From: Nitrosomonas sp.
GTDB lineage: Bacteria > Pseudomonadota > Gammaproteobacteria > Burkholderiales > Nitrosomonadaceae
Direction of reading: 5' to 3'
NCBI GenBank assembly: GCA_024281995.1
Contig: JAMWZW010000006.1
Span: forward strand, 95,654-159,653
Length of the DNA: 64,000 nucleotides
Below are positions 19,153 to 23,336 of the stretch, in pieces; within the stretch, counting starts at the first letter, position 1; every line of letters begins with the position of its first letter. The position numbers and the translations under genes were made by a program. Under the pieces are notes generated by a model. That model made no database searches and had not been told where the DNA came from. It saw only the letters and a list, made by a program, of their open reading frames with translations.

Positions 19153-21027
19153 ATGTTCAAACATCATCCCGGTTCATGCAGATCAGAAGCAATGCACCCT
19201 TACGCCCGTTTGCTGCATGAACTCGTGGAACTGCGCAACGATTTGTTGGCGTTCGAGCATGCCTCTTCAAATATATTACAGCATATTAATCCTTCTCATC
19301 TATCCAGCACTATAAATTTGATTCATTACCTCGCTTTGAGACGGCAGGATATCCGGCCCCTGCAAGAAAGGCTGGCGGCCGTGGGTCTTTCATCGCTAGG
19401 CCGTATGGAATCGCACGTCTTCTCAAATCTCAATGCCATCATCGATCTTCTAAGTTGCGCGCTGGGTAAAAAATCACCGGAAGAAATATCACCCCCTCCA
19501 GATACGACAGGAATGCCCCTGCTTGAAAGCCATACCAATCATTTATTCGGCAGACCGCCCACGCATCGCCGGGTGCGAATCATGGTCACGATACCAAGTG
19601 AAGCGGTGGATGATTACTCGTTGATCAAAAGTATGCTTATTCACGGGATGGATTGCGCTCGAATTAACTGCGCACATGATACACCCCAAGTATGGATGCG
19701 CATGATCGAGCAAATTAATTTGGCGCGCCGTGAGACCGGCAGGAGTTGCCGTATCATGATGGATCTGGGCGGCCCCAAATTGCGTACGGGTGAAATTGCT
19801 CCGGGTCCAGCTGTACTTAAATGGAAACCACAGCGGGATTTCTACGGCAATGTGATTGCACCCGCCCGAATATGGTTACATTCCGCAAGTGACACTTCTC
19901 CCAGTCCGGCACCTGCAGATGCTTGCCTTCCGATACAGGGAGATTGGCTGGCAAAAGTGAAACCGCACGATACGATTGAATTGGTTGATGCGAGAGGCTC
20001 CCCACGCACCTTACGGCTGACCGGTCAAGCCGGAGCAGGTTTTTGGGCTGAATCCAGCCAGACCACATATATTACCCGCGCTATAAAACTCAATCTCTTG
20101 CGCACATCCTTGTCCGGGCATCCACGCCGGATAGGTTCTGCCGGAATTGTTGATACATTGCCTTCTGCACCTGAGTTGATTCGCCTGCACATTGGGGACA
20201 ACCTGATTATCACGCGCGATCCTTTACCGGGTAAACCGGCACAATTCGACACCAATGGACGATTATTGCACGCAGCCATTATTTCCTGTTCGTTGCCGGA
20301 AATATTTGAAAATGTGCAGCCTGGTGAACGCATGCTAATCGACGACGGCAGAATCGGCGGCGTGATCCGCAGTGTCAACAAAAACAATATAACCGTTGAA
20401 ATAACCCAAGCTCGTGAAGGCGGCGAGAAATTATTAGCGAATAAGGGTATTAACCTGCCAGATAGCCGACTTCAATTGAACGGCCTTACGGCGCAAGATA
20501 TCAAGCACCTTGAATTTATTGCGCAGCATGCTGATATGGTGGGACTTTCATTCGTTCGCAATCCTGCCGACATCGAGTTATTGCAGCACTATCTGAAACG
20601 ACTTGATGCCGAAAAAATCGGTATTATTTTAAAAATTGAAACACGCGCCGCATTCGAAAAATTGCCAGAGTTATTGTTCTCTTTGCTGCACTCTCCAAAC
20701 GTGGGCATCATGATTGCGCGCGGTGATCTGGCGGTGGAATGCGGTTACGAAAGACTGGCAGAATTACAGGAAGAAATTCTGTGGCTAGCCGAGGCAGCAC
20801 GTCTACCTGTGATATGGGCTACCCAGGTACTGGAAGGATTATCTAAACGTGGCAAGCCAAGCCGTGCTGAAATTACCGATGCGGCGATGGGGGTGCGCGC
20901 GGAATGTGTCATGCTGAATAAAGGATCGCATATCATCGAAGCCATCCAGTCCTTAAACGACATCCTCCATCGCATGCAGTCTCACCAGAAAAAGAAAATA
21001 TCGTTGCTACGGCGCCTTCATTGGTAA
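19153..21027 (+). CDS. pyk: Atypical pyruvate kinase with N-terminal extension
   Basis: 624 residues. The first 140 or so form a helical extension of unknown role. The pyruvate kinase core follows: RVRIMVTIPS, ARINCAHDT (cf. RLNFSHG), DLGGPKLRTG, KIETRAAFEKL with the catalytic Lys, IMIARGDLAVECG and IWATQVLEGL with the Thr. The B-domain region (about 215-380) is enlarged. The usual MLSGETA block is replaced by MLNKGSH, and the C-terminal allosteric domain is missing: the protein ends right after the barrel. Expected reaction is PEP + ADP to pyruvate + ATP, without fructose-1,6-bisphosphate-type control. Alternative: a paralogue with a modified function; other pyruvate kinases may exist elsewhere. 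Confidence 0.8.
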   Translation: MFKHHPGSCRSEAMHPYARLLHELVELRNDLLAFEHASSNILQHINPSHLSSTINLIHYLALRRQDIRPLQERLAAVGLSSLGRMESHVFSNLNAIIDLLSCALGKKSPEEISPPPDTTGMPLLESHTNHLFGRPPTHRRVRIMVTIPSEAVDDYSLIKSMLIHGMDCARINCAHDTPQVWMRMIEQINLARRETGRSCRIMMDLGGPKLRTGEIAPGPAVLKWKPQRDFYGNVIAPARIWLHSASDTSPSPAPADACLPIQGDWLAKVKPHDTIELVDARGSPRTLRLTGQAGAGFWAESSQTTYITRAIKLNLLRTSLSGHPRRIGSAGIVDTLPSAPELIRLHIGDNLIITRDPLPGKPAQFDTNGRLLHAAIISCSLPEIFENVQPGERMLIDDGRIGGVIRSVNKNNITVEITQAREGGEKLLANKGINLPDSRLQLNGLTAQDIKHLEFIAQHADMVGLSFVRNPADIELLQHYLKRLDAEKIGIILKIETRAAFEKLPELLFSLLHSPNVGIMIARGDLAVECGYERLAELQEEILWLAEAARLPVIWATQVLEGLSKRGKPSRAEITDAAMGVRAECVMLNKGSHIIEAIQSLNDILHRMQSHQKKKISLLRRLHW

Positions 21028-21227: not shown

Positions 21228-21968
21228 TCATTTAATTTTTGAAACTTCTTCCCAAAGCTGCTGATAGGCGTAGTTAGCTTGCTTTGATTTAGCAAAAACA
21301 TCGACAGGCGCCTTGTGTATACCCATTTTTTCGATGTCTGATGAGTAAGGAATGACTGTATTCAAAAATATTTTATATCGTGCAGACATTGCACGCATGG
21401 TTTCCTTGTGCAGCGACTTTTGACTTTGAGCCATAGAAAAAAAAGGAACAATCTTATTTGGTGGATAGTCATTTTCTTTGAAAAAAATCATCAGTTGCTC
21501 AAAAGTACGTTCTGAAAGCGTGGTTGGTATGACGGGTACCAGTACCACATCGGATGCAATAAATATGGATTCCGATAGATGGCTAATCGATGGCGGACAA
21601 TCCAATACCACCAAGTCATATTCCTTATCAAAACCTTTCAATACGCGCTTCAACCGATTTTTACGTTGCTTAAAGCCCGCCAGTAATGAATCGAAGTTAC
21701 GGAAACTCAAATGTGCCGGAATGACATCCAGATTCTCAAAGTCACTTGCCTTAATATGTGTTACCAAATTTTCATAGGCTTTAAAAAAACGCTTAGCCCA
21801 TTTCTTCGTAGATGGCTTAACTCTGAAGTAATAGGATGAAGCACCTTGAGGATCCAGATCAATGAGTAATGTTTTTGATCCGGATTGGGCAGCCCAATAG
21901 GCAAGATTGACCGATGTAGCCGTTTTTCCGACACCACCTTTCATGCTATAAGAAGCAATCACTCTCAT
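21228..21968 (-). CDS. ParA/McdA-type ATPase
   Basis: 246 residues. Deviant Walker A SMKGGVGKTATS with signature Lys near residue 10, LIDLDPQGASS near 37-47, and Walker B VVLDCPPSIS near 117. This is the soluble ParA/Soj type that binds DNA non-specifically and positions chromosomes, plasmids or cell cargo. No ParB gene or parS-like repeats are adjacent. Instead it overlaps the CHAD gene by four bases and is downstream in the same transcript, suggesting that the cargo is recognised by the CHAD protein. That makes it an orphan ParA of the type known to place carboxysomes or chemoreceptors. Confidence 0.88.
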   Translation of the reverse strand: MRVIASYSMKGGVGKTATSVNLAYWAAQSGSKTLLIDLDPQGASSYYFRVKPSTKKWAKRFFKAYENLVTHIKASDFENLDVIPAHLSFRNFDSLLAGFKQRKNRLKRVLKGFDKEYDLVVLDCPPSISHLSESIFIASDVVLVPVIPTTLSERTFEQLMIFFKENDYPPNKIVPFFSMAQSQKSLHKETMRAMSARYKIFLNTVIPYSSDIEKMGIHKAPVDVFAKSKQANYAYQQLWEEVSKIK

Positions 21969-22870
21969 CGCAAATCCTCTGTTTTTGCAGTTTCAAATAC
22001 CAAATCAAATTCATTGGTCATATTTTCTGTAAAAAAATCAGCGATCGCGCCCTCAACTTTCGAGCGCTTTTCTATTTTCTTTTGGTGCAAAATGGCAATT
22101 AAGCCACTCAAAGACTTGGACATTTCAACCAGGGTGTCGTCAACGTAACCGTTTAAGAATGCAATTTGGATACAATAATCATTATAGTCACCCAATACTG
22201 TTTGTATCTTTTTAATTTCACGAACGATTTTTCCAGTACTTCTTTTTGGTAGCAAATCCATAAAAAATTCGATCAAGTAACGCAGTTTTTTAAACTCAAT
22301 ACGTAATGCATGAATATTTTCATCGGGTGACTGACAGCTAGTTCCCCGGCTCATCATCAGCATTTTATGGTAACGCTTTAATATTAATTTCTTTACAACG
22401 CGTGCTATTGATTGTAATGCCATAGAGGTTTCAAAAACAGAATTCAGCGATAATTCTGCGGCACAACTGGCAATAGTGGCTTTATAATCTTTAGAAGACA
22501 AATACCTCGTCACTTTATTTTTTTCTTGCTGACGCTGTTTCGCTATTAAGCCATATAACTCATTTAAACCACTTTCAAAATTTGCTGGGAGCATCGCACG
22601 ATAGCTTTCTTGAGCCAGTATAAATACATCCAAATCGCGTAACTTGTTTGTTTTACTAGCAATCAAGGATAATTTAGGTCGCAGTGTATCAATCAATGGT
22701 GTTGGCAGCACTTTTTTTACCAAACTGATTAAAGATCTTAGTTTGCGTATATTCACTCGAAATTGATGCAAAAATTCAGTATCAGTGTCTGCAATAACAC
22801 CATTTACATGACGTTCTACCTTATCAAGCATCGCAATTGCTATGGCCCGCACCGCCGGTTCCGCTTGCAT
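21965..22870 (-). CDS. CHAD domain protein
   Basis: About 301 residues from the ATG at 22870. CHAD domains are helical bundles with conserved His and basic residues that bind polyphosphate. Two characteristic repeats are visible: LHQFRVNIRKLRSL near residue 30 and IHALRIEFKKLRYLIE near 185, followed by QTVLGDYNDYC. Very rich in Lys/Arg. Known CHAD proteins localise to polyphosphate granules. The coding frame extends upstream to a TTG at 22918, overlapping the CYTH-like gene. Because the upstream gene runs out of frame exactly where the two would join, the two may be one gene split by a frameshift. Downstream overlap with parA is four bases. Confidence 0.85.
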   Translation of the reverse strand: MQAEPAVRAIAIAMLDKVERHVNGVIADTDTEFLHQFRVNIRKLRSLISLVKKVLPTPLIDTLRPKLSLIASKTNKLRDLDVFILAQESYRAMLPANFESGLNELYGLIAKQRQQEKNKVTRYLSSKDYKATIASCAAELSLNSVFETSMALQSIARVVKKLILKRYHKMLMMSRGTSCQSPDENIHALRIEFKKLRYLIEFFMDLLPKRSTGKIVREIKKIQTVLGDYNDYCIQIAFLNGYVDDTLVEMSKSLSGLIAILHQKKIEKRSKVEGAIADFFTENMTNEFDLVFETAKTEDLR

Positions 22871-23336
22871 AGCCGCGCAGCGCCTGGAGCGTACAATAAT
22901 AAGTTGGTTCTTCGCCAACCATCGATTGGGTTAGGCAGCCTTTCACGACTATTTTTTGGTCGCTGTTGCGCAGCGAAAAGTCAGTCTCAAGCAAGCTTAA
23001 GGATGCGACTGGTAATATTGCACGCAAACCGATTAATTTTTGTAATTTGACTTTAACTTCACTCTCCCGAAATTCCCACCAAAATCTGACATCGCCTGAT
23101 GCACTCACTGTATCAATACAACCGGAATGGCCGATAAGTTGAAATTTCTGCTTATCCACATTACAAAGCAAATAATTCGCCTCCCAAAGATGCGTATCAA
23201 AATCATCGTAAAATCGCAGTGTAGATGATAGGGCTGGCTTGATTTCAATCTCAAAATCGGATGACAATCCTGAGAAAATATTGGTGTACTGGGCTGCCTC
23301 GCTTAATTCCCAAGTAATGACTGGCAAAGAATCCAT
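22824..23336 (-). CDS. CYTH-like N-terminal partner of the CHAD protein
   Basis: 170 residues. The block RFYDDFDTHLWEANYLL near 40-57 resembles the (Y)DTFDxxLxxxxxxL signature of CYTH/triphosphate-tunnel domains, and the two following beta-rich stretches fit a partial CYTH fold, though the usual ExExK is not evident. In many bacteria CYTH and CHAD are fused. Here the last recognisable block, TLQALRGY, is followed by a Gly-rich tail that looks out of frame, while the CHAD frame takes over about 10 bases later. Either a real gene overlapping by about 47 bases with translational coupling, or the first half of a frameshifted CYTH-CHAD fusion. Ribosome site at 23336 is weak. Confidence 0.55.
   Translation of the reverse strand: MDSLPVITWELSEAAQYTNIFSGLSSDFEIEIKPALSSTLRFYDDFDTHLWEANYLLCNVDKQKFQLIGHSGCIDTVSASGDVRFWWEFRESEVKVKLQKLIGLRAILPVASLSLLETDFSLRNSDQKIVVKGCLTQSMVGEEPTYYCTLQALRGYASGTGGAGHSNCDA

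Follow-up and report, generated by a model that had tools for sequence, protein, structure and literature searches.

A conserved gene pair encoding ParA and a TTM-CHAD protein, damaged in a Nitrosomonas genome: a candidate system for polyphosphate granule positioning

Among described bacterial systems, the one closest in organization to the locus reported here is that of McdA and McdB, which positions carboxysomes. In both cases the gene of a ParA-type ATPase that has no ParB adjoins the gene of the expected cargo binder, and McdA structures are among the PDB matches of a profile of our ParA. The two systems differ in the partner, which here is a predicted folded polyphosphate binder composed of a TTM-like and a CHAD domain and devoid of a basic disordered N-terminus, and in the presumed cargo, a polymer granule. 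CHAD proteins (phosins), including the TTM-CHAD protein ygiF of Escherichia coli, share with this partner the CHAD fold, the polyphosphate-contact residues and the order of the two domains, but the partner appears to belong to a distinct CHAD subfamily, its TTM domain does not carry the ExExK motif, and a ParA gene lies immediately downstream. The ParABS systems of chromosome and plasmid partition resemble our locus in the sequence family and motifs of ParA, but neither a ParB nor a match to parS was found here. Spacing of polyphosphate granules on the nucleoid has been described in Pseudomonas aeruginosa, where it depends on AlgP (available sections of PMC9239181 and PMC13052382); AlgP, however, is a histone-H1-like DNA binder, and its ATP dependence is listed as unknown in the table of a 2025 review (PMC13052382). 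According to the available sections of the same review, the Caulobacter proteins responsible for granule spacing and inheritance have not been identified, and the use of energy in these processes remains to be seen (PMC13052382).

The same kind of neighbourhood has been reported in one genus, Acidithiobacillus, in which folD, ppk, parA and a CHAD gene form a cluster (PMC6416229, PMC10892726). It was read there as concerned with cAMP signalling or as a background to copper resistance, and in the available parts of the two papers ParA figures only as a partitioning protein. The active-site residues of the Acidithiobacillus CYTH domain are described as conserved (PMC6416229, in its available part), unlike those of the 61 fusions analysed by us. 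In the searchable open-access literature parA beside CHAD is on record for this genus only, and no positioning proposal accompanies it in the available parts of the papers (PMC6416229, PMC10892726). The earlier note on this DNA knew of no described system of this exact kind; the adjacency as such had already been recorded. A proposal that ParA positions polyphosphate was not found in the same literature, the scope of which excludes subscription papers and bioRxiv, and priority is not certain. The main text of a survey of ParA/MinD partners (PMC10241942) mentions neither CHAD nor polyphosphate, and a search for these terms in the available text of a 2025 preprint on the tuning of McdA gave no mention of either.

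The window, by which we mean the whole 64-kb stretch of DNA analysed, belongs to a Nitrosomonas genome assembly of 2.88 Mb in 21 contigs, which is 97.6% complete. On the minus strand of the window, a ParA-family deviant Walker A ATPase of 246 aa is encoded at positions 21228-21968 (Pfam AAA_31, 9.1e-38), and both NCBIfam and Pfam class it among ParA/Soj-like proteins. Its ATG overlaps the stop codon of a CHAD ORF (ATGA) that occupies positions 21965-22918 of the same strand (Pfam CHAD, 1.7e-49), the TTG at 22918 being merely the first possible start. A CYTH-like ORF at 22824-23336, also on the minus strand, has no match in Pfam, but corresponds to the N-terminal half of a TTM-CHAD fusion protein in genomes G081 and G082, where the CYTH-like and CHAD parts form a single open frame. 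DNA alignment with these two sister copies and with a third one, located on contig C19 of the window assembly, indicates that the window lacks 152 bp at 22875/22874 of the minus strand. As 152 is not divisible by 3, the two halves, CYTH-like and CHAD, have come to lie in different frames, and the CYTH-like ORF continues for 51 bp beyond the deletion junction (22874-22875) in the wrong frame. The window thus contains a damaged two-gene unit, in which a TTM(CYTH)-CHAD gene is followed by an overlapping ParA gene. Of the three overlapping minus-strand genes described in the earlier note, ParA and CHAD are in place, but the alignment to the sister copies rules out three separate genes, as the deletion has split a single gene into the CYTH-like and the CHAD ORF. 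In G082 and C19, the stretch that is missing from the window has the hexamer GGCTAT at each end.

The second copy of the ParA block, on contig C19, is 95% identical to that of the window, and its frame is also shifted, one extra base pair having been inserted in the part that encodes TTM. Contig C19 may be foreign to the window genome, as a result of contamination or very recent transfer, because its ParA gene does not differ by a single nucleotide from that of G082 over 246 codons and, in the one 4-kb stretch compared, C19:70000-70254 and one end of a G082 contig share 100% identity. As concerns the window strain, CHAD may suffice by itself there, or decay of the locus may have begun. That the locus is decaying and devoid of function in this strain, a reading that concerns the window only and is compatible with the other readings considered below, is a real possibility, although we lean against it. 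The frameshifting deletion in the fusion gene, the frameshift in the C19 copy and the fact that no PPK1 was found in the 97.6% complete window genome all speak for such a decay. On the other hand, the deletion could stem from faulty assembly, the polyphosphate-contact residues of the window CHAD are kept, and neither the ParA nor the CHAD ORF is interrupted, their dN/dS values between the window and the sister copies being 0.06-0.085 for ParA and 0.32-0.34 for CHAD, though most of the underlying divergence may be older than the deletion.

The adjacency of ParA and CHAD genes is far beyond chance. One scan of a species-representative collection gave at least 596 stretches, at least 577 of them confirmed, of which the best 80 were kept and fetched; a contig end truncates one locus (L109), which leaves 79 assessable. 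Among these best 80 named relatives of at least 577, CHAD is encoded directly upstream of ParA and on the same strand in 67 of the 79 and is missing next door in 12. The 67 pairs, many of which come from metagenome bins, represent Pseudomonadota (48), Thermodesulfobacteriota (5), Actinomycetota (5), Kiritimatiellota (2) and, with one pair each, Verrucomicrobiota, Planctomycetota, Myxococcota and Dormiibacterota, three pairs being unplaced; the isolates include Pontiella, Cerasicoccus, Desulfobacter, Ruegeria, Oceanospirillum and N. europaea. The gap between the two genes is -4 in 44 of the 67 pairs, with ATGA in 41 of these 44. A sample of 369 genomes of the class, with a ParA-family cut-off of E 1e-40 and one split match counted once, gave 62 matches in 59 genomes, and CHAD lies upstream of 44 of them, in 42 of the 59 positive genomes. 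The remaining 18 matches have no adjacent CHAD; three of these are weak (near E 1e-41), and eight of the genomes concerned have no CHAD anywhere. Altogether, 136 CHAD genes were found in 120 genomes of this sample, 44 beside a ParA of this family and 92 elsewhere, and the co-occurrence of the ParA family and CHAD at the genome level has an odds ratio of 22 (Fisher p 6e-21; 369 genomes, kinship ignored). In the family sample (125 genomes), 23 strong ParA matches occur in 22 genomes, with CHAD upstream in 21 of 22 assessable loci (absent in L023, while L029 is cut off). At the level of the order the ParA family is rare (8 of 399 genomes at E 1e-26), and outside the genus five of six genomes with ParA have CHAD upstream, the exception being L041. 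The distribution of this ParA family is patchy, but the pairing is present in several phyla, and so the linkage across genera that the earlier note had proposed to look for is far from being confined to one strain. The CHAD-less locus of Nitrosomonas sp. Nm51 (L023/L092) has a gene of a SixA-like histidine phosphatase after ParA.

The two genes also appear to have been inherited together. ParA and CHAD distances are correlated over 68 pairs (r 0.86; none of 1000 permutations gave a value as high), and in 47 of the 68 the relative closest by ParA is also one of the three closest by CHAD. Nitrosomonas occupies the same three places in the ParA and CHAD trees. In the first, L044, which is the sister of the window, groups with Oceanococcus, Marinospirillum and L046; this is well supported in the ParA tree, while in the CHAD tree L044 forms a long branch and the fork is not among the well-supported ones. 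In the second, N. europaea and HPC101 group with Falsochrobactrum, with good support in both trees, and in the third, N. marina and NMNS01 belong to a well-supported clade whose 23 rows are mostly from Gammaproteobacteria and Actinomycetota. Such congruence would be most simply explained by repeated joint transfer of the two genes.

Residues K10, K15, D37, D39 and D123, which we take to be the signature lysine, the Walker A lysine and the Walker A' and Walker B aspartates, are invariant in all 68 aligned ParA proteins (67 relatives and that of the window), as would be expected of members of the ParA/MinD family of deviant Walker A ATPases. In L042 and L043, ParA has a C-terminal extension of about 290 aa and is still encoded downstream of the TTM-CHAD gene. 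This extension looks CYTH-like by eye, so that a fusion of ParA with TTM was considered, but it has no Pfam match, gave only 0.2% and 0.7% in hhalign, and its model has a pLDDT of 43.

The CHAD domain was detected in 61 of 61 scanned relatives. A profile built from 61 of the 67 ParA-linked proteins matches nearly the whole chain of CtCHAD (3E0S, 6QV7/6QVA) with 357-358 bits and Ricinus CHAD with 133 bits. CtCHAD was crystallised with polyphosphate (6QVA), and its binding was weaker after mutation of H253, R256, R260, R296 and R418/Y419 (available part of PMC6537752). Equivalents of H253, R256, R260, R296, R418 and Y419 are kept in 59, 60, 60, 61, 61 and 60 of the 61 proteins, respectively, and all six are present in the CHAD of the window. 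Ralstonia CHAD proteins localise on granules, as cited in the available part of the same paper (PMC6537752). When 30 CHAD loci from the class search were fetched, 22 ParA-linked proteins scored 329-399 bits on another profile, that of the CHADs of our loci; three unlinked ones (L159, L178 and L180), with no ParA in the fetched stretch, scored 315-395 bits, and five other unlinked ones as well as a third CHAD of the window genome scored 135-155 bits. The gap between 315-399 and 135-155 bits arises partly by construction, as this second profile was built from our own, mostly ParA-linked, loci. Judging from these comparisons, ParA-linked CHADs seem to form a distinct subfamily, with which CtCHAD falls. 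A C-terminal extension unique to them was considered and rejected, since the tails of unlinked CHADs are of about the same length and merely fail to match the profile. The third CHAD of the window genome (G000:C15:14587-16719; L002, L186) has an N-terminal ExExK and adjoins the only PPK2 match of this genome.

CYTH/TTM enzymes carry the ExExK motif near their N-terminus. The AlphaFold2 model of L044, an intact relative of 507 aa (pLDDT 93.9), indicates a TTM-like fold of the N-terminal domain, which in Foldseek matches thiamine triphosphatase and other TTMs with E values of 4e-5 and weaker and a TM score by target length of about 0.4-0.57. The E. coli ygiF structure (5A60) is also a match of the L044 model, with a poor overall superposition (TM 0.25-0.28). 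At a cut-off of E 0.01, Pfam CYTH matches none of the 61 ParA-linked fusions. Two of them contain the ExExK pattern, in neither case at the expected place: in L044 it occupies residues 29-33, outside the first strand of the model, and in L082 it lies 75 residues ahead of LDxFD. The pattern is present in all four of the unlinked CHAD proteins inspected (of six generic unlinked ones seen), in four CYTH proteins and in 14 of the 25 members of a mixed CYTH/NUDIX neighbour cluster. A catalytic CYTH domain in the fusion was therefore rejected, and the fused domain is probably TTM-like in fold and non-catalytic. This may not hold everywhere because of the conserved CYTH residues described in Acidithiobacillus.

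Partners of ParA/MinD ATPases act, or are suggested to act, via a positively charged disordered N-terminus (survey PMC10241942, in its available part). Such an N-terminus was not found in the 61 TTM-CHAD proteins as delimited by their predicted starts, most of which have short N-termini, and the linker is neutral. A methionine is present 39-54 residues upstream of the first conserved motif in 48 of the 54 proteins that have one ahead of it, and there is none in 7 of the 61. The contact with ParA would therefore involve a folded surface, of the TTM-like domain or of the C-terminal helix of CHAD, or would be absent.

That ParA and the TTM-CHAD protein form a conserved unit of polyphosphate biology is well supported. 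As the motif residues of ParA are kept and its partner is a predicted polyphosphate binder, the unit fits cargo positioning of the Mcd type, and we consider it probable (roughly 0.6) that ParA positions polyphosphate granules via the TTM-CHAD protein. The CHAD domain would bind polyphosphate and so mark the granule, while ParA would bind ATP, dimerise and coat the nucleoid. By touching ParA, the granule-bound TTM-CHAD protein would stimulate its ATPase activity and cause its release, and the resulting diffusion ratchet would space the granules or share them out, as McdA does with carboxysomes. The suggestion of the earlier note that CHAD is the granule adaptor of a ParA system gains from the adjacency, the kept polyphosphate contacts and the polyphosphate-related neighbours, but its three-gene picture was wrong, the partner is broken in this strain, and nothing found shows positioning. 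Other points that weigh against positioning are the missing basic disordered N-terminus, the roughly one quarter of ParA relatives that have no adjacent CHAD, the CHAD genes that stand apart from this ParA, the occurrence of PPK1 irrespective of the pair, its absence from the window genome, where a PPK2 adjoins a different CHAD, and the rarity of the family in the order. The pair provides a candidate ATPase and a candidate adaptor for the spacing and inheritance of polyphosphate granules. A member of the CHAD subfamily of the adaptor has already been crystallised on polyphosphate and the unit occurs in culturable, harmless bacteria such as Paracoccus aestuarii, Ruegeria, Methylomonas lenta and N. 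europaea, which makes the question directly testable. If the positioning is confirmed, the cargo of ParA systems would extend to an inorganic polymer granule, and bacteria would possess an apparatus devoted to placing their phosphate reserves and dividing them up.

The genes surrounding the pair point to the metabolism of polyphosphate, on which, or on the products of which, the companion enzymes (tripolyphosphatase TTM, NUDIX, SixA and PPK) would act. Among 125 neighbour proteins hand-chosen from 216, with most CHAD-less loci and most long proteins left out, there are 16 CYTH proteins, 9 SixA-like histidine phosphatases, 8 NUDIX proteins, 3 PPK1 and 2 PPK2, two of the three PPK1s (L093 and L121) having been put in knowingly as such; other families have at most three members each among the 25 listed of 131. 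The ParA gene of N. europaea is followed by NE1496 (PDB 2FBL, 3TYP), which we take to encode a specific inorganic triphosphatase. A plasmid of Paracoccus marcusii carries, in this order, phoU, phoB, several small genes, CHAD, ParA, CYTH, NUDIX and CYTH. PPK1 is present in 38 of the 42 genomes of the class sample with the pair versus 179 of the 327 others (p 3e-6). It goes with CHAD, however, and not specifically with the pair, because 71 of the 78 genomes that have CHAD with no adjacent ParA carry it too.

These neighbours are also compatible with a reading in which ParA serves polyphosphate metabolism and not positioning, as an ATP-dependent switch or scaffold that controls TTM, PPK and NUDIX enzymes or recruits them to polyphosphate. 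We regard it as the less probable account, if one to be taken seriously. Enzyme genes are the commonest companions of ParA after CHAD, the classical partner tail is missing, and in G669, a genome with no CHAD, ParA begins some 1.2 kb downstream of the middle domain of PPK1, in the same orientation, and is probably the next gene. Against it, all five ATPase motif residues checked are invariant in the 68 proteins, and the usual companion is probably a non-catalytic polyphosphate binder, not an enzyme.

A broader version of granule positioning, in which this ParA branch would be a family for storage granules, with polyphosphate as the main cargo via TTM-CHAD and with CHAD-less members switched to other storage bodies, is speculative, and we think it improbable. 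The idea comes from three CHAD-less Methylococcales loci (L088, L097 and L098), in which relatives of ParA are encoded directly upstream of glycogen phosphorylase (assigned by Pfam in L088 and by similarity in the other two), and from Marinobacter plasmid pMAQU02 (L189), on which a relative of the window pyruvate kinase adjoins a 39%-identical ParA near an acetoacetyl-CoA reductase. In L085 and L120, the magnesium transporter MgtE takes the place of glycogen phosphorylase beside a CHAD-less ParA.

The only ParB of the window genome above the cut-off is encoded beside an ordinary ParA on contig C3, a second match being below it. In a phmmer search with that single Nitrosomonas-type ParB as a query, ParB was found in nine of nine ordinary ParA loci (L006 and L030-L037; L184, also positive, is the same place as L006) and in none of the other fetched loci, CHAD-linked included, the flanks of which were mostly 1.5-4 kb. 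The canonical parS pattern gave no match with up to three mismatches in the 64-kb window, where 0.41 would be expected by chance. As far as these searches reach, the absence of ParB and parS remarked on earlier holds, and no ParB above the cut-off elsewhere in the genome can be assigned to this ParA, the one present adjoining the ordinary ParA on C3. That we are dealing with a DNA-partition ParA, chromosomal or plasmid, whose ParB or centromere is remote or unrecognised and whose link to CHAD is incidental, is very improbable despite its Pfam and NCBIfam placement and its plasmid-borne relatives (31 records at E 1e-20, a count that includes ordinary ParAs), since ParB was not found in the fetched CHAD-linked loci, ParA adjoins a CHAD gene in all six Paracoccus plasmid matches, the two genes are paired in several phyla and their trees are congruent.

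Convergent with ParA, the window encodes on its plus strand (19153-21027) a long pyruvate kinase of 624 aa, in which the best Pfam pyruvate kinase stretch covers residues 374-589. The corresponding gene is truncated in the C19 copy of the block (L003, L005, L191). Plasmid-borne relatives of similar length adjoin pst phosphate-transport genes in Hymenobacter (L193) and Thiodictyon (L194).
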